This document shows positions 14,767 to 26,460 of a stretch of 57,925 nucleotides of DNA, one piece after another (positions within the stretch are counted from its first letter, which is position 1; every line of letters starts with the position of its first letter). The notes beneath the pieces are model-generated. The model searched no databases. It was given only the letters and a program-made list of their open reading frames with translations, and was not told where the DNA came from. This DNA comes from Candidatus Peregrinibacteria bacterium CG_4_9_14_0_2_um_filter_53_11 (GTDB lineage Bacteria > Patescibacteriota > Gracilibacteria > UBA1369 > UM-FILTER-53-11). The DNA is taken from assembly GCA_002788775.1 (NCBI GenBank), contig PFRX01000046.1, positions 1-57,925 of the forward strand. The letters are read 5' to 3'. Both the position numbers and the translations under genes were made by a program.

Positions 14767-15645
14767 ATGAACAGACAACTGCATCTAGCGGTTTTGCTTG
14801 GGGCGGCGGCAGCCCTTGAAGGGGGCTGGCTTGAAGGTGGGATGAAGACGGCAGCGGCGAAAGAGAGGCCGAGTGGACTTGAGGATCAGCTGCAGCAGAC
14901 GAGTTCCGCAGTGCGAAGGGCAGTAGAGGCCGAGACTATCTCCTCTGAAAAAGAAGAAAAGACACCGGTTGAAAAAGCGATCGACCGAATTTTCGCTAGT
15001 GGAGCTACAATTACCGCCCCTGAAGATGACTACAATCAAAAAAGAATTGCTTACTGGAAAAAACGCTTCGCACGGCCCGGCGGCAAGTGGGTTAAAGCGT
15101 GGGAGAGAATGAAAGAGCGTGGCCATTTGGAGATGGTCGTTAAGATCTGTGACGAGGAGGGGGTCCCCCCCGAACTGGTCTTCATCGCGTTGATTGAGTC
15201 GGGTTGGCGTTCAAACACAACATCCCCGGCAGGAGCTCGCGGCTACTGGCAGTTCACCGAATCGACCGCACGTCATCGTGGCCTGCGCGTTGATGCCGAA
15301 GCCGGCGTCGATGAACGTACTCATCCGCGCAAAAGTACACGTGCAGCGGTTCGCTACCTGAAATTCCTCTACAACCTGACCTATGAGTGGGATAAGCAGC
15401 GCCGCCCTGACGATGAAGAGTTAGACGATAGTGTCCGCTGGATGTTTGCCCTCTGGGCCTATAACCGTGGTCCCAAATACGTGGCACTGGCCTACGAAAA
15501 ATATGAAGGAAATGTCGCAACCTACCAGGAAAAACTGCCAGCACGCCTAGAGGAGCACGGAGACTACCCCAACAGGTTCTTTGGGATAAGGGAGTTCCTC
15601 AGAGACCATGAGCAGCTAAAGGGGAAGCAAGACTTGGAAGAATAG
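14767..15645 (+). CDS. Exported lytic murein transglycosylase (SLT domain, MltD-like)
   Basis: The 292-residue protein has a weak N-terminal signal sequence (HLAVLLGAAAALEGGW), a charged linker, and an SLT/lysozyme-fold domain from about residue 125. Signatures are PELVFIALIESGW with predicted catalytic Glu144, then SPAGARGYWQFTESTARHRGL, HPRKSTRAAVRYLKFLYN and MFALWAYNRGPKYV. Such enzymes cleave the MurNAc-GlcNAc bond of peptidoglycan with formation of 1,6-anhydroMurNAc. No LysM repeats are visible, unlike MltD itself. It lies 49 bases before the 1089-residue gene, so the two may be co-expressed and could serve insertion of a surface structure. Confidence 0.9.
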   Translation: MNRQLHLAVLLGAAAALEGGWLEGGMKTAAAKERPSGLEDQLQQTSSAVRRAVEAETISSEKEEKTPVEKAIDRIFASGATITAPEDDYNQKRIAYWKKRFARPGGKWVKAWERMKERGHLEMVVKICDEEGVPPELVFIALIESGWRSNTTSPAGARGYWQFTESTARHRGLRVDAEAGVDERTHPRKSTRAAVRYLKFLYNLTYEWDKQRRPDDEELDDSVRWMFALWAYNRGPKYVALAYEKYEGNVATYQEKLPARLEEHGDYPNRFFGIREFLRDHEQLKGKQDLEE

Positions 15646-15694: not shown

Positions 15695-18600
15695 ATGGGA
15701 GACAATCGAATACACAACGGAGGAGCAGCCGATCAGCTCATAGAGCAGCAGCCACTGGAAGCCGACAACACTACTAGTGTTGAAGATGAGCCGCGAGATT
15801 CTGAGCTGACGCTCGAAACCGCCGAGGAGGCCCGTGAGACGGCTGAGATGAGAACGAAACTGACCTCTAAGCGTGAAGGGGCCGATATATCCCTGGAAGT
15901 TTTGGAGAGTGCGGCCCGCACACGACATTTTGACGTACAGACACCCCGACAGATAGCCGACATCCCCCTTGATGACCGAGAGACTCCGGAAAACAAGCAG
16001 GCATTTAGAGAGCGCTGGAGCTCATTTTTCATAACGTCTACAGCCTTGCTGGCTCGACTTTTTGAGGAGCGCCCGGAACTGGCCGGAAGATTCGACTCGG
16101 CCTCCTCAATGGGCTCACTGGGACGAGCCGCTCAAGAGGCCGGCCTCGCCCTCCATCCTGCAGAAATCGCGTTGATCACAAAATGTGAACAACTTGCCGC
16201 CTCCCCAACCTCAAAAGCCTCTGTATATAGCGCCGAACGTTGGCCGCAAATTGCTGCAATTTCTAAAAAAATCGCCAGCGAAGTTGGGACGATGAGAAGC
16301 GCCCTCCCCCCTACTCCCGGTGCGCACTCCCCAGAGAGACCAACCGACTCCCCTTCTTCGAGGCAGGAAGGCCCCTCATTCTGGAAACAACACCCCGTCA
16401 TAACCGGTCTGGCCTTTGCCGCTGGCGCCTATGGCGTCTACCGCATTGCAAAAGGCATACTGGGCTCACTATCCGATGGCGAGAAGGACGCAGACGGCAA
16501 GTCAGAAGGATTTTTCAGCAAGCTGATCGCAAGTAAAGGCGGATGGGCCAAGATCCTGCTTGGAGGAAGTGCCCTGAGCGCACTCAGCACTTTCAGCGCG
16601 GGGAAGCTCATGGGCGTCGACAGCGTAAAGAGCTTTATGAAAGAGCAACTGGGCGTCGATGTTGACATGAACCGACTCACCAAAGCTATGATGCTCGCCT
16701 CCAATGGTGATATCAGCGAGGCTTGGGAGACGATCTGGGAAGGCACCGACGAACATGCTACTGAACATCGCGCCTGGGCCGAGTACATTAATCGGAGCGT
16801 ACATACCCAAGTCGTGAGAGGAAAACATATTCATGCCATTATGGGCATGAAGTACTCAGACTTCGTCTCGAAAACTCAAGACTGGAAAGATCAGGCCGGG
16901 CTCAAGGCTCGTGAGACAGGTGGGCCCCTGCTTCAAGTTATCACCGACTCACCCGAGGTCAATAAGGCCCAGATGGCAATTCGCAGCTTTTTGAGACACT
17001 CTGAGCCGATGGTCAGGCAACAGCTTCTGCCAATCCGCGAGGACGAGACGACCGTGGGAGAGGTTCTTAATGTCCTGATGCCCCACCTTACGGGAACGGC
17101 ACTCCCCTCCCCGGCAGCTCCCACATCTCCCGGTGCACCGGCTCAACCGGGCCTTCCCGGCAGTCCTGCTCCCCTCGTCGCAGGTGCGGCGGCGGCAGCC
17201 GGCGCCCTCGGAGCGGCCGAATCCCTTGCGGGAGGCCACTCCCCTTCTGCAGCTCCGGCCCTCACAGCAACACCCCGGCTCGATCCGAGCAAGGTCGACT
17301 ACCTCCAGCGCAACGAGGTTATTACTCACCTTCCAGTCTCACCATTTAAAGAGCGCACACTGGCCAATGAGGCAGTTCTGGGCGCCATGATGGATACGAC
17401 AGCGATAAACGATCACCTCAAGGTGCTTGACGAGGTCATTACGGAGGTACAGTCCAAGATTGCCGACGCAGATGAGAAAGAGCGCCCTGAGCTACAACAA
17501 TCGCTAACAAAACTCATCCGCATCAGAGACCGCATTCTGAGCAAGCTGATGCCCAACCATGCCGTAGCTGCCCAGAACTATCTCGCAGCTCTTGCGAGTG
17601 GAGATGAAGAAAAACTTCAAGAGGCCCTGACGAACTATGTCGCTGCAAAAGAAGAGATCAGCAAAGCCTTCGCCGAGAGCTTCGAACGTGACTTCATCAA
17701 GTACCTTGCAGGCCGCCTCGTCCTCAACTACAACAAGATTTTTAAGCTGGGCGCCTTCCTCCGCGTGGGTGACCTCAAGGAGGAGAACTCAAAGTATCTC
17801 TTTGGCAGATATCTCAAGAAGCTCGCCGCATTCACCCATCCGGTGGCCGGCCTACGCAGTGCAGCTGAAAGTATCAGGAAGCAGCCACTCAAACCACTCA
17901 ATGAGATCGGCGTCGAACGCACAAAACTCAATGGCGAGATCGAGAGCTGGCACAAGAACTGGAGCGCAGGAACCCAAGGAGGCATGTCCCACAAGCCCGA
18001 CACACGGTTCCTTGCAGAGATAGATGAGTACCATGGCCGAGCCGTGACTCTCCAGAGCGGACTTGAACGCCACTGGTCGGAAGCCCACCGCGAGATGCAG
18101 GCCGCGATGAAGCGCGGTGACCGTGGAGCCGTAACTGCTCAGATGGCCCGCCTCAACCGCGTTGCCAAAGAAATGGAAGACCTTCAAGTGGGTACGATAC
18201 GACGTGATATCGGAACCTTCAACATCCTCAAGGCCAGCTTTACCGGCCAGGATTATAATGAGGGAGTCAACAAGCTACGCAACGGCTTCCGTAGCGCGAT
18301 GGAAAAGCACAACCGAGCTAATAATGCCGGTGGCATGGGGCGACTCATGCCCACAAAGGGAGGTCTCGCCTTCGTTGCGGGGCGTATCGCCTTGGGATCC
18401 TGGCTTATGTCAGACGAAGAGTCTCACTGGTATGACTCTGAAAACCTCAAGCATGCCGCACTGATGGCTGCCCCAATTACAGGAACCGCGATGGATCTCA
18501 AGGCCCTCTACACCATGCAGGACCCCATTACGGGACGCCCGCTCGACACAAAAGAACTCGTTGCAACCGGTGCCTTCGCAACGGTCGGGGTTATCAGTGA

Positions 18601-18964
18601 CGCCCTCACAGTACTGGGTGTCGGTCTCGGCACACGAGCCGCATTAAACGCCTACCGAACAGCTACGGGGCTCGGTGCTGTAAAAAAAGCTCAGCGTCTC
18701 CGAAAAGCGATAAGTGAAGGAGCTGACGCCCGGAATCTTCTGCGCGCGCACAGAGTTGCACGAGCGGTAACTATGGGGCACCGAGCTCTAACAGTTTACA
18801 CCGTCGGGCAGCTGGGCTCTCAGCTTATCGAACTCAGTCTCGAAAAACACGATATCCCGGATATTCCCGCAGAGTTCAAAGCGGCAATCGTGGATCCGGT
18901 TATGAGTGAAGTGGGTTCACGCCTAGGCGTGAATGATGCGGTTGACCTGTACAGAGGACAGTAA
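15695..18964 (+). CDS. Large unknown protein with hydrophobic segments and Pro/Ala-rich linker
   Basis: I do not recognise this 1089-residue protein. There is no N-terminal signal peptide; the first 220 residues are acidic and helical. Hydrophobic stretches occur at about 233-255 (HPVITGLAFAAGAYGVYRIA) and 283-305. A Pro/Ala/Gly-rich linker spans about 469-532. A charged, helical and probably coiled-coil region follows to about 885, then further hydrophobic stretches near 889-905 and 955-990. This resembles a scaffold or membrane-bound secretion component more than an enzyme. A possible ATG 8 bases upstream is out of frame and soon stops. A TATAAT box lies about 32 bases before the ATG. It follows the transglycosylase gene on the same strand. 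Confidence 0.78.
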   Translation: MGDNRIHNGGAADQLIEQQPLEADNTTSVEDEPRDSELTLETAEEARETAEMRTKLTSKREGADISLEVLESAARTRHFDVQTPRQIADIPLDDRETPENKQAFRERWSSFFITSTALLARLFEERPELAGRFDSASSMGSLGRAAQEAGLALHPAEIALITKCEQLAASPTSKASVYSAERWPQIAAISKKIASEVGTMRSALPPTPGAHSPERPTDSPSSRQEGPSFWKQHPVITGLAFAAGAYGVYRIAKGILGSLSDGEKDADGKSEGFFSKLIASKGGWAKILLGGSALSALSTFSAGKLMGVDSVKSFMKEQLGVDVDMNRLTKAMMLASNGDISEAWETIWEGTDEHATEHRAWAEYINRSVHTQVVRGKHIHAIMGMKYSDFVSKTQDWKDQAGLKARETGGPLLQVITDSPEVNKAQMAIRSFLRHSEPMVRQQLLPIREDETTVGEVLNVLMPHLTGTALPSPAAPTSPGAPAQPGLPGSPAPLVAGAAAAAGALGAAESLAGGHSPSAAPALTATPRLDPSKVDYLQRNEVITHLPVSPFKERTLANEAVLGAMMDTTAINDHLKVLDEVITEVQSKIADADEKERPELQQSLTKLIRIRDRILSKLMPNHAVAAQNYLAALASGDEEKLQEALTNYVAAKEEISKAFAESFERDFIKYLAGRLVLNYNKIFKLGAFLRVGDLKEENSKYLFGRYLKKLAAFTHPVAGLRSAAESIRKQPLKPLNEIGVERTKLNGEIESWHKNWSAGTQGGMSHKPDTRFLAEIDEYHGRAVTLQSGLERHWSEAHREMQAAMKRGDRGAVTAQMARLNRVAKEMEDLQVGTIRRDIGTFNILKASFTGQDYNEGVNKLRNGFRSAMEKHNRANNAGGMGRLMPTKGGLAFVAGRIALGSWLMSDEESHWYDSENLKHAALMAAPITGTAMDLKALYTMQDPITGRPLDTKELVATGAFATVGVISDALTVLGVGLGTRAALNAYRTATGLGAVKKAQRLRKAISEGADARNLLRAHRVARAVTMGHRALTVYTVGQLGSQLIELSLEKHDIPDIPAEFKAAIVDPVMSEVGSRLGVNDAVDLYRGQ

Positions 18965-18988: not shown

Positions 18989-20563
18989 CTACAGTTTCTT
19001 CGTCATATACGTTCCCTCGAGTTCGTATCCCATCTTCCTGTAATACTCTCGGATTCCGATCCCCGAGATAATCGCCATCTTCTTGAAACCATTAGCCTTT
19101 GCGATCCGCTCGGCCTCGGCAACAAGCTTCTTTCCAAATCCCATGTGCTGACTGGCCAGCTCATCTTTTTCTGAAATGGGAACCTGCGCACCATAGGTAT
19201 GAAGCTCGCGGATGAGGGCGGCTCCCTCCAACTCCTTAATAAAGTGAGGAGTGCCGGTCATCGAGTAGCTGGTGAAACGAAGACGCAAGAGTGCACAGAG
19301 CTTATCCTGCTTCATCTCATCATAACTCAAGAAAAACTCCTTACCCCCCGAGGCCTCATACTCCATCGTCTTGAGCTGAATCTGCTTGGGATCGATCACA
19401 TTTCCACGAATCTCCCGGCAGCGAATACACTGGCAGACAATCCCCTGCTTCTTCATCCGCTCATGAGCGACCTGCCGGAGATTGGAGACCTTACTCCCGC
19501 CAATAATACTCGTTGCCGGAATATCTCGAATCAGACGAGTGACCCGGAGGTAACGGGGGAAGTAGGGCTTGCTCTTGAGGATAACCTCGAGCAGCTCCTC
19601 GTCGGTATAAGGGCGGTGCCTCCCCTGCTCGTGCCAGAGCTTGAGCTCGGAAAAAGGCACAACCATACAAGGGTAAAACTTAATCATATCGGGCTTGAAG
19701 TCGGGATTCTCAAAGAGCTCCTTGAACATGGCGATGTCCCGCTCGACGGTCGCTCCCGGAAGGTTGGGCATCATGTGGTAGGAGATTTTGAAGCCGGCAT
19801 CTTTAAGTAACGTGGTCGCATGAATTGTTGCCGCCACATCATGACCACGATTCACCAGCTTCAAGACGTCATCATAGATCGTCTGGGCCCCCATCTCGAT
19901 ACGCGTTGCGCCGAGCTTTCGCATGCGATGGATCTCATCTTCGTCGATCCAGTCCTGGCGCGTTTCCAAAACGATGGCGACACAGCGATGTTTGGCCGTC
20001 TCGTTAATCCGCTGAGCCTCATCCAAACTCCGCGATCGGGTACCATTCATCGCGTTCAAACACTGCTTAATATAATCACTCTGATAACGTTTTGGATGAG
20101 CCGACCAGGTTCCGCCCATAACGATGAGCTCGACCTTGTCAGTAGGATGACCGTTCGCATCGAGTGCGGAAAGACGGGTCTCTACCTGGCGGTAGGGATC
20201 GTAGTCGTTGAGGATGGCACGCATCACAGCCGGCTCATTACTTAGGTAACTTTTGGGAACATTCTCCTCGGTTGGGCAGAAGACGCAGCGAGCGGGACAG
20301 CCCATCGGCTTGGTTAAAACAGCAACCGGAGAGACTCCGGAAAGGGTGCGAATCGAGCGCTTCTGAATGAGCTTGGCAAAGGCGGGATTTTCCTTAACCT
20401 GCCCGACCTTCACAAGCTGACGATAGGCGGCGATCAGAGCGGAATTGGGCGGCGGTGAGACGCCAAAGTGCTCGGCGTACTGAAGCTTGAGCTCGTGGAG
20501 CTCTTGAGGAGTGGTAATGCCGCTCTCCAGGGCATCGATAACGAGTGGTGCGATTGAAGCCAT
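18989..20563 (-). CDS. elp3: Elp3-family tRNA wobble-uridine carboxymethylation enzyme
   Basis: Elp3 combines a radical-SAM domain with a GNAT domain and makes cm5U34 in tRNA. From the ATG at 20563 it has 524 residues, close to Elp3 proteins. The cluster motif GCPARCVFCPTEENVPKSYL supplies Cys89, Cys93 and Cys96, followed by NEPAVMRAILNDYDPYRQ and ELIVMGGTWSAHP, all Elp3 signatures. The C-terminal GNAT part (about 400-524) has QHMGFGKKLVAEAERIA and the diagnostic ISGIGIREYYRKMGYELEG. An upstream extension to 20779 overlaps the divergent gene and lacks family similarity, so it is rejected. No Elp1/2/4-6 subunits are nearby, as in other bacterial and archaeal single-subunit systems. A Trm9-like gene starts 90 bases away on the other strand. 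Confidence 0.95.
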   Translation of the reverse strand: MASIAPLVIDALESGITTPQELHELKLQYAEHFGVSPPPNSALIAAYRQLVKVGQVKENPAFAKLIQKRSIRTLSGVSPVAVLTKPMGCPARCVFCPTEENVPKSYLSNEPAVMRAILNDYDPYRQVETRLSALDANGHPTDKVELIVMGGTWSAHPKRYQSDYIKQCLNAMNGTRSRSLDEAQRINETAKHRCVAIVLETRQDWIDEDEIHRMRKLGATRIEMGAQTIYDDVLKLVNRGHDVAATIHATTLLKDAGFKISYHMMPNLPGATVERDIAMFKELFENPDFKPDMIKFYPCMVVPFSELKLWHEQGRHRPYTDEELLEVILKSKPYFPRYLRVTRLIRDIPATSIIGGSKVSNLRQVAHERMKKQGIVCQCIRCREIRGNVIDPKQIQLKTMEYEASGGKEFFLSYDEMKQDKLCALLRLRFTSYSMTGTPHFIKELEGAALIRELHTYGAQVPISEKDELASQHMGFGKKLVAEAERIAKANGFKKMAIISGIGIREYYRKMGYELEGTYMTKKL

Positions 20564-20653
20564 AGGGTGTGACGGTGGGGTTTTCCCATCCGCGCTGAAA
20601 GTGTAGAGTGTTGAAGGAATAAGGTAAAGTCTAACGAACCAACTCTCAAAATC

Positions 20654-21385
20654 ATGACCGAACATGATGAGTCCGTCGTCCGGAAGGTGAATGCCGACTA
20701 TAATGCGATCGCCGATGCGTTCAACGAAACACGCACAAAACCATGGCCCGAGTTCGAGGCGTTTAAAAACGCCCTCCACAAACTCAGAGAAGAGAGCGCC
20801 GGCCAGCCTAAAAAGGAGCGTGAGGGCCAGTCAGCACAAGAGCCGCTCTCACTCCTGGATGTTGGCTGTGGCAACGGCCGGCTCGCGCACTACCTTCATG
20901 ACGAACCGATCAGCTACCATGGTATCGACACGAGCGCCGCACTTCTCAGTAAGGCGCGCGCCTCTCTTCCAACCGACAAAAGTCAGCTGCTGAGCTGCAG
21001 CTTCACTGAAGCCGATATGCGGGCTCTTCCCTTCCCCGAAGAGACTTTCCACTGTGTCGCCGCCGTGGCCTCGCTCCACCACCTTCCAACTCCTCAGATG
21101 CAGACAGCCGCGCTGCGAGAGATATACCGCGTCCTCAAAAAGCCCGGCCTGCTTTTTATAACCGTCTGGGACCTCTGGCAGGAGCGCTACCGTGAGATGA
21201 TCGACCCAACGACCCAGCACGCCACAATCCCCTGGAAACGCGGAGTACAAGAAGGAGAGGTCGAACGCTTCTACTATGCATTTAAAAAAGAAGAGTTCGA
21301 GGATCTCCTCAAGCACAACGGCTTCCCAAGTTACAACGCTATCCCCAGCACCCATAACTTCGCCTATCTCTGCAATGTCAGCTAA
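20654..21385 (+). CDS. Trm9/ABH8-like tRNA (cm5U34) methyltransferase candidate
   Basis: This is a class I SAM methyltransferase of 243 residues with motif I LLDVGCGNGRL (DVGCGNG at about 69-75), motif II/III HGIDTSAALLSKAR and DMRALPFPEETFHCVAAVASLHHL. Outside the generic fold it carries features of eukaryotic Trm9/ALKBH8: YNAIADAFNETRTKPWP (about 16-32, like the family's FSxTRYKPWP), IPWKRG, and VERFYYAFKKEEFEDLL. Those enzymes methylate cm5U34 to mcm5U34 in tRNA. The neighbour elp3 would make the substrate, which strengthens the call. No Trm112-like partner is visible here. A generic small-molecule methyltransferase cannot be excluded. Confidence 0.75.
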   Translation: MTEHDESVVRKVNADYNAIADAFNETRTKPWPEFEAFKNALHKLREESAGQPKKEREGQSAQEPLSLLDVGCGNGRLAHYLHDEPISYHGIDTSAALLSKARASLPTDKSQLLSCSFTEADMRALPFPEETFHCVAAVASLHHLPTPQMQTAALREIYRVLKKPGLLFITVWDLWQERYREMIDPTTQHATIPWKRGVQEGEVERFYYAFKKEEFEDLLKHNGFPSYNAIPSTHNFAYLCNVS

Positions 21386-22196
21386 GATCCGCATCCTCAA
21401 CATCCCCTTCGACGCCATCACGGAAGCCGAGGCGATCGAAAAAATACGCCATCGGCTCGGTGGTGAGTCGGGAGACCTTGCCCTCATCACGACGCCAAAT
21501 CCCGAGATGCTCCTTGAGGCCCAGAATAATCCCGCCTTCCGAGACATACTCAATAACACCTGGATGAGCATTCCCGATGGGATCGGCATTCTCTGGGCGG
21601 GCCGCTTTGCACAGGAGTCGGAGGGGCGTTCTTATCTTGGCAAGATCTTCACCGCGCTTAGGACGCTCGCAGAGTTAGTAGTATCCCCAAAAAAGAGCCG
21701 GAGTGTCTTTCCACAGCGACTGAGCGGCGTCGACCTCATGCAGAAGATCGTCGAGCTGAGCCAGAGCTCGGGCGAGCGAATCTTCCTCCTCGGCGCAGCG
21801 GAGGGTGTTGCAGAAAAGGCAGGAGAAAAACTCCTTGAGCAGTTTCCGAAAGCAAAGATCGTAGGCTACCATGCGGGCTCACCGGCTGATGAGGACTACC
21901 TGTCAATTTTAAGAAAAATCCGAGAGACAGAACCCGAAATCCTCTTTGTCGCCTACGGCGCCCCGGCTCAGGAGGAGTGGCTCAACAGGCACCGTGGAGA
22001 GCTTACCGGCGTGCGACTTGCCATGGGCGTCGGTGGCTCATTTGACTTTATAGCGGGAACAAAAAGACGTGCACCTCTGTGGATGAGACTTCTCGGCTTG
22101 GAGTGGGCGTTCAGGCTCGCGCAAGAACCAACGCGCTACAAAAGAATCTGGAACGCCGTCGTTCGCTTCCCTCTTGCGGTACTACGATCATTTTAG
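21375..22196 (+). CDS. WecG/TagA/CpsF-family glycosyltransferase
   Basis: A GT26 enzyme that adds a sugar, often N-acetylmannosamine or its uronate, to a lipid-linked GlcNAc in cell-wall polymer synthesis. From the ATG at 21375 it has 273 residues, typical of the family; the longer frame to 21276 lies inside the methyltransferase gene. Motifs are ITTPNPEMLLEAQ, SIPDGIGILWA, GVDLMQKIVEL, VAYGAPAQEEWL and GVGGSFDFIAGTKRRAP with the C-terminal LEWAFRLAQEPTRYKR. It overlaps the end of the Trm9-like gene by 11 bases, so it is co-transcribed and probably translationally coupled. An SLH-type wall polymer would be a fitting use. Confidence 0.92.
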   Translation: MSAKIRILNIPFDAITEAEAIEKIRHRLGGESGDLALITTPNPEMLLEAQNNPAFRDILNNTWMSIPDGIGILWAGRFAQESEGRSYLGKIFTALRTLAELVVSPKKSRSVFPQRLSGVDLMQKIVELSQSSGERIFLLGAAEGVAEKAGEKLLEQFPKAKIVGYHAGSPADEDYLSILRKIRETEPEILFVAYGAPAQEEWLNRHRGELTGVRLAMGVGGSFDFIAGTKRRAPLWMRLLGLEWAFRLAQEPTRYKRIWNAVVRFPLAVLRSF

Positions 22197-22602: not shown

Positions 22603-22631
22603 TTGATAAAAAAGAACCAGTGGGTTATGCT
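22603..22631 (+). promoter_or_regulatory. Strong promoter of the hupE-cyclase-VOC operon
   Basis: -35 TTGATA (22603-22608), 17-base spacer, -10 TATGCT (22626-22631). The -10 box lies at the edge of the inverted repeat 22619-22652. The start would be near 22638, 19 bases before the ATG. Confidence 0.75.
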
Positions 22632-22652
22632 GAATAAAAGCGCTAACCCACT
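22619..22652. promoter_or_regulatory. Inverted repeat overlapping the hupE promoter
   Basis: AGTGGGTTA (22619-22627) and TAACCCACT (22644-22652) form a perfect 9-base inverted repeat with a 16-base centre. The left arm covers the end of the spacer and touches the -10 box; the right arm lies just before the start codon, in the place where a Shine-Dalgarno sequence would be. It suits either a repressor dimer site or an mRNA hairpin. Confidence 0.6.
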
Positions 22653-22656
22653 CTTT

Positions 22657-23250
22657 ATGAAAAACTCACGCACACTTCTTCGGCTGATTCTCGGAGGCCT
22701 CTTGCTCGTTCCTGCCGTGGCACAGGCACATCTTGTAGGGGGAAGCGGACTGAGTGACGGACTTACTCATCCACTCCTCGGCATAGACCACCTTCTGGCT
22801 ATGGTCGCAGTCGGCGTAGTAGGCAGCCAGCTTGGAGCCAGTGCTCGCTGGAAGCTTCCCGCAGCTTTCGTCGGCTCAATGATAATCGGTGGAGCACTGG
22901 CACTCATCGGGCTCAACCTTCCAGCAACTGAATCGGGCATCGCCCTTTCGCTTATCATGCTCGGCTCCTTTATCGCACTCGCACTCTCAAGCTCAACAAA
23001 AATCTCGATCAGCTGGGCGGCCCTTCCCATCGCACTCTTTGGGCTTGTCCATGGACACGCTCATGGGAACGAGATGGGAGTTGTGAGCACCCCCTCACTT
23101 TATTTTGCTGGCTTTGTAACGGCAACTGCACTGCTCCACATAACCGGCATCACACTGGGACAGCTCGCAAGAAAAACGGAAGTCAGGCAGAACCTTCTGC
23201 GCTACGCCGGAACGGGCATGGGACTGGCCGGGCTCTTCCTCATATTCTAA
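22657..23250 (+). CDS. hupE: HupE/UreJ-family membrane protein
   Basis: The 197-residue protein starts with a signal-like segment (MKNSRTLLRLILGGLLLVP, cleavage plausible after AQA) and has about six hydrophobic segments. Family signatures are HPLLGIDHLLAMVAVGVVG, LPAAFVGSM, and the His-rich FGLVHGHAHGNEM. HupE/UreJ proteins are secondary nickel or cobalt transporters linked to hydrogenase or urease in other bacteria; neither enzyme is visible here. An in-frame start at 22603 lies on the promoter itself and is unlikely. It leads an operon with a cyclase-family and a glyoxalase-fold gene (gaps of 10 and 17 bases). Confidence 0.88.
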   Translation: MKNSRTLLRLILGGLLLVPAVAQAHLVGGSGLSDGLTHPLLGIDHLLAMVAVGVVGSQLGASARWKLPAAFVGSMIIGGALALIGLNLPATESGIALSLIMLGSFIALALSSSTKISISWAALPIALFGLVHGHAHGNEMGVVSTPSLYFAGFVTATALLHITGITLGQLARKTEVRQNLLRYAGTGMGLAGLFLIF

Positions 23251-23260
23251 CACCCGAGCC

Positions 23261-23893
23261 ATGCACAACCAGCCCTGGATCGATCTCACTCATCCAATCA
23301 CAGAAACGATGCCCGTCTTTCCAGGTGACCCACCTCCCCAAATTTTAAAAACCGCAACTATTGAGAAAGAGGGATATAACGAGTTCAGCGTAACCTGTGG
23401 AACGCATACGGGAACCCATGTAGACGCCCCGTGGCACATGCTGGAAGATGGAGCTTCCATCTCCGGTTTCACTTTAAACACACTCTGCGGACCGGCCCAG
23501 TTGATTGACGCGCGAGGCAAAAGCAAGATCGACAGCGAGCTTTTTACCGGACGACAGCTGAGCAACGGCGATCGAGTGCTTATTATGACCGGCCACTCAG
23601 CGACCTATGGGACAGCTTCCTACTACGAGGACTTCCCCGAGCTCACCACCGAATGTGCAAACCTTCTAGCCGACTCAGGTGTTACTCTGGTTGGGCTCGA
23701 CACGCCAAGCCCGGATCGCGCTCCTTTCAAGAAACATCACATTTTGATGAGAGCACGCATTCTCATTATCGAAAACCTCATGGGCCTGGAAAAGCTCAGC
23801 TCGTTCAGTGACGTTGAGCTGATCGCCCTTCCCCTCAACCTACAAACCGACGCCGCGCCGGCACGCGTCATCGCTCGCGGCATCAGCCCATAA
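23261..23893 (+). CDS. Cyclase-family (kynurenine formamidase-like) metal-dependent hydrolase
   Basis: A 210-residue protein of the cyclase/KynB fold. The opening WIDLTHPITETMPVFPGDP and the metal-binding HTGTHVDAPWHM (His, Asp, His) are diagnostic, and the C-terminal VIARGISP fits the family. Members hydrolyse N-formylkynurenine or related amides and lactones; without other tryptophan catabolism genes here the substrate is unknown. It is second in the hupE operon, which may supply the metal. Confidence 0.88.
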   Translation: MHNQPWIDLTHPITETMPVFPGDPPPQILKTATIEKEGYNEFSVTCGTHTGTHVDAPWHMLEDGASISGFTLNTLCGPAQLIDARGKSKIDSELFTGRQLSNGDRVLIMTGHSATYGTASYYEDFPELTTECANLLADSGVTLVGLDTPSPDRAPFKKHHILMRARILIIENLMGLEKLSSFSDVELIALPLNLQTDAAPARVIARGISP

Positions 23894-23910
23894 TCCCCTA
23901 TCTTTAGACC

Positions 23911-24342
23911 ATGGATCAAAGACTCACCTTCATCACAATCGGCGTTGAGGACCTTGAAAAGATGAAACGGTTCTACCAAGACGTCTTTGGCTGGAAACCC
24001 TTCAAAGATGAGCAAGGCGTCGTCTTCTTCAGGCTCAATGGCATAGTTCTGGGCCTCTTCCCAAATCAGGAGCTCGCAAATGATGCACAGATTTCAGCTG
24101 AGAGTCGAGGCTTCAAGCGCTTCTCACTTTCGATCAACTTCAGCTCCGAAGCAGAGGTCAGTAAGATCTTCAAAAGGCTTGCGGAAAAAGGAGCGACCGT
24201 CCTAAAGGAGCCGGAGAAGGTTTTCTGGGGAGGGTTCAGCGGCTACCTCCAAGATCCGGAGGGGACGCTGTGGGAGCTTGCCTACAATCCCTTCATGGAG
24301 CTCGACGAAGAGGGCTCGTTCGTGGGAGAGGTAGCAAGCTGA
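23911..24342 (+). CDS. VOC (glyoxalase/bleomycin resistance) superfamily protein
   Basis: The 143-residue protein shows the paired beta-alpha-beta-beta-beta layout of the VOC fold: FITIGVEDLEKMKRFYQDVFGWKP at the start, FFRLNGIVLGLF in the middle and GGFSGYLQDPEGTLWELAYNP at the end, the last Glu being a typical metal ligand. These proteins bind a divalent metal and act on many small substrates. Third gene of the hupE operon; specific function unknown. Confidence 0.86.
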   Translation: MDQRLTFITIGVEDLEKMKRFYQDVFGWKPFKDEQGVVFFRLNGIVLGLFPNQELANDAQISAESRGFKRFSLSINFSSEAEVSKIFKRLAEKGATVLKEPEKVFWGGFSGYLQDPEGTLWELAYNPFMELDEEGSFVGEVAS

Positions 24343-24380
24343 AGCAGTCAACTCCAAGCGCGGCGCAGCACGGTACCAGC

Positions 24381-25808
24381 CTACAGCCCCAACAGCGCCC
24401 GTAGCCTTTCTTGAACGACGGGAGGCTGAGCGGTGCCCCGGCTCTCCTTCATGACCTGCCCCACAAGAAAGCCGATCGCCTGCTCTTTTCCGCCCTGCAC
24501 ATCGGCAACCGGGCCGGGATGAGCCTCTATAACCTTTTTGCAGAGCTCATCGATCGCCCCCGCATCACTCACGACCGAAAGGCCGAGTTCGTCTATGACA
24601 GCATCGGGATCTTTGCCTGTTGAGTACATCGCCTCAAAAACCTCACCTTTTGCCTGATTCGTTGAGAGCTTTCCCTCAACGATCCGTTTCACGAGGGTCC
24701 CAAGCTGCCGGGCAGAGATCGGCGACTCAGAAAGGCTGCGCTGATCACGCTTGAGCGCCCCAAAGAGAATCGTCGTAACAAATGAGGCTGCCTTTTTCAT
24801 ATCGCCCGAAACGCGGATAACCTCTTCGAAATAGTCAGCGCGCTCCGGCTCCTCCGCCAAAAAGAGAGCATCATGTTCCGAAAGACCATACTCCGAGACG
24901 AAACGAGCTCGACGAAGACGGGGAAGCTCGGGAAGTTCTTTTTTATACTCGAGCACACGCGACTCCTCAACCTCAACCGGTGGGAGGTCGGGCTCCGGGA
25001 AGTAACGATAGTCGTGAGCCTGCTCTTTGCCGCGCTGGCTCACCGTCTCCGCCTTATCATCATCCCAGCCGCGGGTCTCTTGAGCAATCTTCTGACCATT
25101 TTCGAGCATCTCCTCCTGGCGCCTGATTTCGTACTCAAGAGCTCTCTCAAGAGAACGGAAAGAGTTCAAGTTCTTAACCTCAACTTTCGTGCCAAACTCG
25201 TCCTGTCCGACAGGACGAAGAGAGACATTCAGATCGAAACGCATCATCCCTTTTTCCATATCGCAGTCGGATGAGCCCACATAGCGAAGGATCCGGCGAA
25301 CCTCCTGAGCATAGGCTGAGGCCTCTGCAACCGAACGCATATCCGGCTCGGAGACGATCTCCATAAGAGGCGCTCCACTCCGATTGTAGTCACACAGAGT
25401 CCCCCGTGAGGTGTGAGTCAGCTTACCCGCGTCGTCCTCAAGGTGGAGGCGCGTGATGCCAATGCGACGTCCTCCTTCAACCTCAATAAATCCCTTACCC
25501 GAGACGGCCTGATCAAACTGAGAGATCTGATATCCTTTTGGTAGGTCGGGGTAAAAATAATTCTTACGATCAAACTTGGAGAAAGACGGAATCTCGCAGT
25601 TCAGGGCGAGAGCTGCACGAATACCTTTCTCCACACACTCTTTATTAGTAGCGGGAAGCATGCCGGGAAAGCCCATGCAGATAGGACAGACATTTGAGTT
25701 CGGCGGTTTGCCAAAAGAGTCGGTACTGCACGAACAGAACATCTTCGTCTTCGACGATATCTGGGCATGAATCTCTAGACCGATAACCACCTCATAAGCG
25801 TGTAACAT
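24381..25808 (-). CDS. gatB: Aspartyl/glutamyl-tRNA amidotransferase subunit B
   Basis: GatB, with GatA and GatC, converts misacylated Glu-tRNA-Gln or Asp-tRNA-Asn to the cognate amide. From the ATG at 25808 it has 475 residues. Signatures are YEVVIGLEIHAQ, CPICMGFPGMLP, KFDRKNYFYPDLPKGYQISQ, DYNRSGAPLMEIVSEPD and the C-terminal YqeY-like tail domain. A GTG three codons upstream is possible but abuts a TAGAGT box (25818-25823); the ATG is 9 bases from the box, as in other leaderless genes here. gatA and gatC are not in the window. Confidence 0.97.
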   Translation of the reverse strand: MLHAYEVVIGLEIHAQISSKTKMFCSCSTDSFGKPPNSNVCPICMGFPGMLPATNKECVEKGIRAALALNCEIPSFSKFDRKNYFYPDLPKGYQISQFDQAVSGKGFIEVEGGRRIGITRLHLEDDAGKLTHTSRGTLCDYNRSGAPLMEIVSEPDMRSVAEASAYAQEVRRILRYVGSSDCDMEKGMMRFDLNVSLRPVGQDEFGTKVEVKNLNSFRSLERALEYEIRRQEEMLENGQKIAQETRGWDDDKAETVSQRGKEQAHDYRYFPEPDLPPVEVEESRVLEYKKELPELPRLRRARFVSEYGLSEHDALFLAEEPERADYFEEVIRVSGDMKKAASFVTTILFGALKRDQRSLSESPISARQLGTLVKRIVEGKLSTNQAKGEVFEAMYSTGKDPDAVIDELGLSVVSDAGAIDELCKKVIEAHPGPVADVQGGKEQAIGFLVGQVMKESRGTAQPPVVQERLRALLGL

Positions 25809-25817
25809 AGCGCCCAC

Positions 25818-25823
25818 ACTCTA
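25818..25823 (-). promoter_or_regulatory. -10 box that supports the gatB start
   Basis: TAGAGT on the minus strand lies 9 bases before the ATG at 25808 and directly beside the alternative GTG at 25817. The spacing favours the ATG. No convincing -35 box was seen. Confidence 0.45.
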
Positions 25824-25854
25824 CCAAATGCCCGGCTCCTGAGGAAGAAAAAAC

Positions 25855-26460
25855 CTAATGCTCCCGCCTCAACCTTCCGACCAACTGTGCCAACTTCTCA
25901 CGCAGCAACTCCTCTCTTCCCTCATTTCTTATCTCTTCAAAAGCCGATTCGCGAAGGATCTTCCGCTGAAAGAGGATCATCTTCTCGAGCTCCTCAGCCG
26001 GCCCGAAGCGCTCCCCCAGACGACTTTTAATGAGCTCGTCACTCGCCTCGATTCTGATCACGTGATCGACACTCCGCCCCAAGTCTTGGGGTTCGAAATA
26101 AAAGGCCTCGATACAGACATCGGAAGAAGAATCGCCTTTCCCTTCACGCTTAAGCTGATCAACTTTTTTATTCAACTCATCCGTTATAAGTGGATGCATG
26201 ATCTTATTCAAAATCCATAACTTCTGGTGATTTCCCAGAACGAAACGCCTCAAGATGGGACGGCGAACCTCTGTCTTACTCACAAAGCGCTCACCAAAGT
26301 GAGAGCGGATCTTCTCGTATCCCCTCCCCCCGGCACGATAGAACTCATGCACAAGAGCATCGGCCTCAATCCAGTGAAAACCAAACTCATCACGAAGAAG
26401 ACGACAGGCAGTGCTCTTACCACTCCCGATAACCCCGGTAACGCCCAAAATCACACCCAT
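25855..26460 (-). CDS. coaE: Dephospho-CoA kinase
   Basis: Phosphorylates dephospho-CoA in the last step of coenzyme A synthesis. The 201 residues begin MGVILGVTGVIGSGKST (P-loop), followed by EADALVHEFY, the LID-region FGPAEELEKM and a C-terminal helical tail, as in the family. The start codon follows a 137-residue gene by 27 bases on the same strand; no Shine-Dalgarno sequence. The rest of the CoA pathway is not in this window. Confidence 0.93.
   Translation of the reverse strand: MGVILGVTGVIGSGKSTACRLLRDEFGFHWIEADALVHEFYRAGGRGYEKIRSHFGERFVSKTEVRRPILRRFVLGNHQKLWILNKIMHPLITDELNKKVDQLKREGKGDSSSDVCIEAFYFEPQDLGRSVDHVIRIEASDELIKSRLGERFGPAEELEKMILFQRKILRESAFEEIRNEGREELLREKLAQLVGRLRREH

Follow-up and report, generated by a model that had tools for sequence, protein, structure and literature searches.

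Wobble uridines of the xm5s2U34 type are described as (c)mnm5s2U in Bacteria and as mcm5s2U in Eukarya (PMC5400242). The mcm5U modification has been listed as a eukaryal signature; Elp3 and Trm9 homologues have been predicted in archaea, and clustering of their genes has been reported in S. solfataricus (PMC2584109). An archaeal Elp3 forms cm5U34 in vitro, and tRNA elicits a response of bacterial Elp3 (PMC5372719, PMC6367351). According to a 2017 review, bacterial genes similar to those of Trm112-dependent methyltransferases are not detectable (PMC5372719). Our literature search, which did not extend to subscription papers or preprints, found nothing on a bacterial Trm9 or on wobble modification in CPR bacteria; within that literature, the claim of the initial annotation that a Trm9-like partner of bacterial Elp3 had not been described is upheld.

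We analysed a stretch of 57,925 nucleotides from a Candidatus Peregrinibacteria genome (contig PFRX01000046.1; hereafter the window), in which elp3 adjoins a gene for a Trm9-like methyltransferase. This enzyme has in common with eukaryotic Trm9-Trm112 (S. cerevisiae; Y. lipolytica, structure 5cm2) and with the Trm9-like domain of ALKBH8 a methyltransferase core, an N-terminal TRxxxW motif, an HH motif, a C-terminal RxY and N and, as predicted here, a functional partnership with Elp3. The window enzyme differs in being bacterial, in consisting of a single 243-aa domain, in having its gene next to elp3 and in belonging to a genome in which no Trm112 domain was found. To our knowledge, the other Elongator subunits are not expected in bacteria.

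Among the putative archaeal Trm9 proteins (Haloferax HVO_0574/HVO_1032, Sulfolobus), the haloarchaeal homologue has the same motifs as the window enzyme; their distribution, however, is limited, archaea carry Trm112 (PMC5372719 and our control genomes), and their product is unproven in the literature found. The bacterial MnmE/MnmG pathway (with MnmC and MnmM), which yields cmnm5U and mnm5U, acts on the same wobble uridine and has the same presumed decoding role as the pathway proposed below, but its enzymes are unrelated to this pair in kind and the group they add is an aminomethyl group, derived from glycine or ammonium; MnmG, moreover, is missing here and uncommon across the phylum. The combination of Elp3 and Trm9 is itself known; what is new is its putative occurrence as a module in bacteria, where Trm112 is lacking and the thiolase is a bacterial one.

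The divergent elp3-methyltransferase locus

The elp3 gene occupies positions 18989..20563 on the minus strand and encodes 524 aa from an ATG at 20563, a start chosen in place of the GTG at 20779 in the mechanical ORF list. Its product scored 605 bits against TIGR01211 (ELP3; cut-off 350) over 515 residues, has a radical SAM and GNAT architecture, and matched the Elp3 chains of the PDB with E-values down to 1.5e-151, in agreement with the earlier identification of the gene. The FeS cysteines are C89, C93 and C96 (CX3CX2C, as in Dehalococcoides Elp3), and a QHMGFG acetyl-CoA motif is present at position 472. The active-site residues named in DmcElp3, K77, K193, E386 and Y441 (PMC6367351), correspond in an alignment with 5l7j to K143, K259, E453 and Y507 of the window protein, assuming that the numbering of the 5l7j chain is that used in the paper. 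Judged by its sequence, this minus-strand ORF, which ends at 18989, encodes Elp3 in full; formation of cm5U34 by the protein is inferred.

On the plus strand, positions 20654..21385 encode a Trm9-like class I SAM methyltransferase of 243 aa, predicted to be a cm5U34 carboxyl methyltransferase. The ATG codons at 20563 and 20654 are separated by a divergent intergenic region of exactly 90 bases (20564..20653, assigned to neither strand), as the initial annotation had stated. Both promoters are presumably located in this spacer. A promoter scan of 20564..20653 gave no good sigma-70-type match, the scores being at chance level. The divergent arrangement suggests that elp3 and the methyltransferase gene are co-regulated from the 90-base spacer, although no promoter match stands out.

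The last 11 bases of the methyltransferase gene are shared with the start of a gene for a WecG/TagA/CpsF-type glycosyltransferase (21375-22196, plus strand), an overlap that suggests translational coupling in this genome. Genes for HupE/UreJ, a putative cyclase, a glyoxalase, GatB and CoaE follow the pair at 22603-26460. On the other side, a 1089-aa ORF without a Pfam match (15695-18964, plus strand) adjoins a gene for a lytic transglycosylase (SLT; 14767-15645). No conserved third gene was found at the pair in the loci of about 80 relatives; a GatB-like gene was near the pair in 20 of them and other genes in 20 or fewer. The recurrent GatB-like and other neighbours look like lineage synteny or antisense ORFs. 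A phage or plasmid origin of the pair was also considered and rejected: there was no phage match, and viral contigs gave weak matches only, mostly to the Rossmann core.

Relationship of the methyltransferase to Trm9

The 243-aa protein contains both FNETRTKPWP and VERFYYAFKKEE, the features from which the initial annotation had inferred a Trm9-like enzyme. In Pfam and NCBIfam it matched generic methyltransferase domains only, and none of the NCBIfam equivalogs among the matches listed reached its cut-off (DVU1556, 60.5 of 155 bits; UbiE, 51.7 of 216 bits). When the PDB was searched with phmmer, the top match was Y. lipolytica Trm9 (5cm2_Z). The same chain came first with a family profile built from 26 relatives (100 bits, E=1.1e-27, profile positions 26-217), and the alignment began at the TRxxxW motif and extended as far as the C-terminus, approximately the full length; the second chain scored 67.5 bits over half the length. 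No ALKBH8 methyltransferase domain was among the PDB matches, and the comparison with ALKBH8 is made through Trm9 only. In the reciprocal search, yeast Trm9 as query returned the window methyltransferase as its sole match in the genome, and in nearly all relatives its best match was the gene already matched in the class survey described below, as judged by eye. The phmmer result, the profile scores and the reciprocal search thus indicate a likeness to Trm9 that goes beyond the common Rossmann fold. The proposed kinship is thereby supported, and no small-molecule methyltransferase family among the listed NCBIfam equivalogs competes with it at its cut-off.

Mutations R29A, H115A, R241A, Y243A and N271A of yeast Trm9 reduce both tRNA affinity and activity (PMC5372719). 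With the yeast numbering assigned to alignment columns by motif order on 5cm2, these positions correspond to R27, H142/H143, R205, Y207 and N235 of the window enzyme, all of which are present. Conservation in 106 relatives was high for R27 (105), H142 (97), H143 (104), R205 (104) and N235 (102); Y207, the equivalent of Y243, was retained in 85 and swapped, mostly for H, V or I, in about one-fifth. The complete five-residue set was found in 79 of the 106 relatives, and also in the aligned Trm9 chain, as compared with none of the 22 closest paralogues.

A tree was built from 52 sequences, without full sets of eukaryotic and archaeal Trm9 and ALKBH8. The haloarchaeal protein, which scored 126 bits with the family profile, grouped with Trm9 (support 96/96), and the bacterial family formed one side of a branch (86/87). 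The bacterial family, Trm9 and the haloarchaeal protein together lay apart from the paralogues with weak support only (65/67) and on long branches. The closest paralogue group (L148, L149, L150 and L151) is a second group of methyltransferases, whose family-profile scores were about 98-107 bits and whose genes are not beside elp3.

Distribution of the pair and of MnmG, MnmE, MnmA and Trm112

One member of the methyltransferase family was found at full score in the genome to which the window belongs (1.2 Mb, 99% complete). Matches to the methyltransferase were present in 114 of the 118 genomes sampled from the class, some of them to generic methyltransferases only, and Elp3 exceeded the cut-off in 101. 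Both positions could be compared in 100 class genomes: the matches were divergent with less than 1 kb between them in 69, and a further 7 had 1-2.1 kb. When sampling was extended to the phylum (287 genomes), Elp3 was above the cut-off in 103, and every genome with a strong family member, defined by a family score of at least 110 bits, also carried Elp3 (75/75). In this sample, 71 pairs were divergent within 3 kb, representing 36 families as counted by family label. The frequency of close, divergent pairs in both samples argues that the adjacency of the two genes is not due to chance, and conservation of the pair in related genomes, which the initial annotation had left to be checked, was confirmed. 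Of 80 loci retrieved, 66 showed both genes, and contig ends truncated several of the others; named records include Peregrini-, Peri-, Gracili-, Moran-, Magasanik-, Nealson- and other Parcubacteria. This distribution points to a patescibacterium close to Peregrinibacteria/Gracilibacteria as the organism, with which the UGA-recoded members of its class agree. A eukaryotic contaminant is excluded by this phylum-wide occurrence in many independent MAGs. In 27 genomes of the phylum sample Elp3 was found without a scored family member, so that cm5U may have other fates.

MnmG was detected in none of the 118 class genomes, and the window's genome gave only matches of about 18 bits to the N-terminal nucleotide-binding stretch, while controls were positive. 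In the phylum sample it was found in 5 of 287 genomes, none of them with Elp3, five being too few to test exclusion. Neither MnmG nor Elp3 was found in about 180 of the 287 sampled Patescibacteria. MnmE was searched for in the window's genome only, where just its GTPase domain was matched, again with positive controls. A Trm112 domain (PF03966) was not found in the window's genome and occurred in 1 of the 118 class genomes, the incomplete G027 (80% complete, 5% contamination). All of these absence calls depend on MAG completeness. The lack of PF03966 in the genome is the reason for describing the methyltransferase as Trm9-like and not as a Trm9-Trm112 holoenzyme. MnmA is present in the window's genome (354.5 bits). 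The initial annotation had asked whether mnmE and mnmG are missing: neither was found in the genome, and mnmG was not found in the class sample either. Its suggestion that wobble-uridine modification follows the eukaryotic route instead of MnmEG is supported by the absence of mnmE and mnmG and the match to Trm9, with one correction: the route is not eukaryotic throughout, since the thiolase is the bacterial MnmA and Trm112, which eukaryotic Trm9 needs, is absent.

Alternative activities and the proposed pathway

Structural comparison brought forward a different tRNA methyltransferase. When the AlphaFold2 model of the methyltransferase (pLDDT 92, pTM 0.90) was compared by VIA-align, the highest score was that of METTL6 (Z 21.6, rmsd 3.0, 214 residues), as would be expected if the enzyme methylated another position of the anticodon loop, forming m3C32. 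Several small-molecule methyltransferases reached Z 20-21.6; 5cm2 was not among the best 50 VIA-align entries and ranked fifth with Foldseek. However, the fold is common to the whole superfamily and Z differences below 1 are ties; with 1000 of 1000 chains at Z of at least 8, the comparison is uninformative as a test of family. By predicted fold alone, then, the enzyme is not specially Trm9-like. The family profile, which placed Trm9 first, did not have METTL6 among its best 60 PDB chains, and we regard a METTL6-like activity as extremely improbable. The many small-molecule enzymes among the fold neighbours, together with the generic Pfam and NCBIfam matches, could also indicate a UbiE/BioC-type methyltransferase, acting on a small molecule or a protein, that adjoins elp3 by chance. 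The strict association with Elp3, the conservation of the Trm9-specific C-terminal residues and the failure of the listed NCBIfam equivalogs to reach their cut-offs make this very unlikely.

A wobble-uridine substrate does not in itself specify mcm5U as the end product. In E. coli, CmoM forms a carboxyl methyl ester at U34, likewise with SAM as the methyl donor (cmo5U to mcmo5U), and this precedent would allow a CmoM-like reaction on a 5-oxyacetate. The ester could also be an intermediate to ncm5U, or the product could be some other one in the anticodon loop; work on a yeast trm9 mutant led to the proposal of an additional step in mcm5U synthesis in which ncm5U takes part (PMC3110198). CmoM, however, has another substrate and belongs to another family, and it did not appear in the 25 highest-ranking NCBIfam matches of the window enzyme; moreover, the partner here is Elp3, whose product is cm5U, and the Trm9 residue set is conserved. 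An end product other than mcm5U is therefore considered unlikely, if somewhat less so than the two activities discussed above.

The neighbouring Elp3 and Trm9-like genes of these Patescibacteria, which are very small and for the most part uncultured, and the near absence of mnmG from the sample lead us to predict bacterial mcm5U. We consider it very probable that the pair forms a two-enzyme wobble-uridine pathway, completed by MnmA thiolation, that replaces MnmE/MnmG. Elp3 would place a carboxymethyl group on C5 of U34 (cm5U) by SAM radical chemistry with acetyl-CoA. The Trm9-like enzyme, using its R/H/RxY/N set to bind the anticodon loop, would then methylate the cm5U carboxylate with SAM as the donor to give the methyl ester mcm5U, apparently without a Trm112 activator, as inferred from the absence of that protein. 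The presence of MnmA suggests that the tRNAs for Gln, Lys and Glu would be 2-thiolated to mcm5s2U. In lineages carrying the pair, these two enzymes would take the place of MnmE/MnmG. The substrate, the product mcm5U and the Trm112-independent activity are all inferred, and there is no biochemical evidence for them.

It is likely, though less firmly supported, that this hybrid mcm5U/mcm5s2U34 pathway (Elp3, MnmA and a Trm9 that acts as a single subunit without Trm112) replaces MnmEG in the pair-bearing Patescibacteria, that the textbook division into eukaryal mcm5U and bacterial (c)mnm5U does not hold for much of bacterial diversity, and that the Elp3-Trm9 module may predate eukaryotes. A phylum-wide bacterial pair would alter the picture of mcm5U as a eukaryotic modification and would explain how the wobble base is modified in these genomes without MnmEG. 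It would also provide a downstream partner for bacterial Elp3, the fate of whose product is undescribed in the literature found, and the window enzyme would offer structural work a single-subunit Trm9 that lacks Trm112.

The same divergent pair was also seen in a contig labelled Ignavibacteriales (SURF_28; QZJX01000010.1); either this MAG is mislabelled or mis-binned, or the pair was transferred horizontally. In six relatives (G097, G099, G101, G108, G110 and G117) the methyltransferase match was weak and elp3 contained in-frame TGA codons, as expected of UGA-recoded Gracilibacteria, which indicates that Elp3 has been kept under the altered code.
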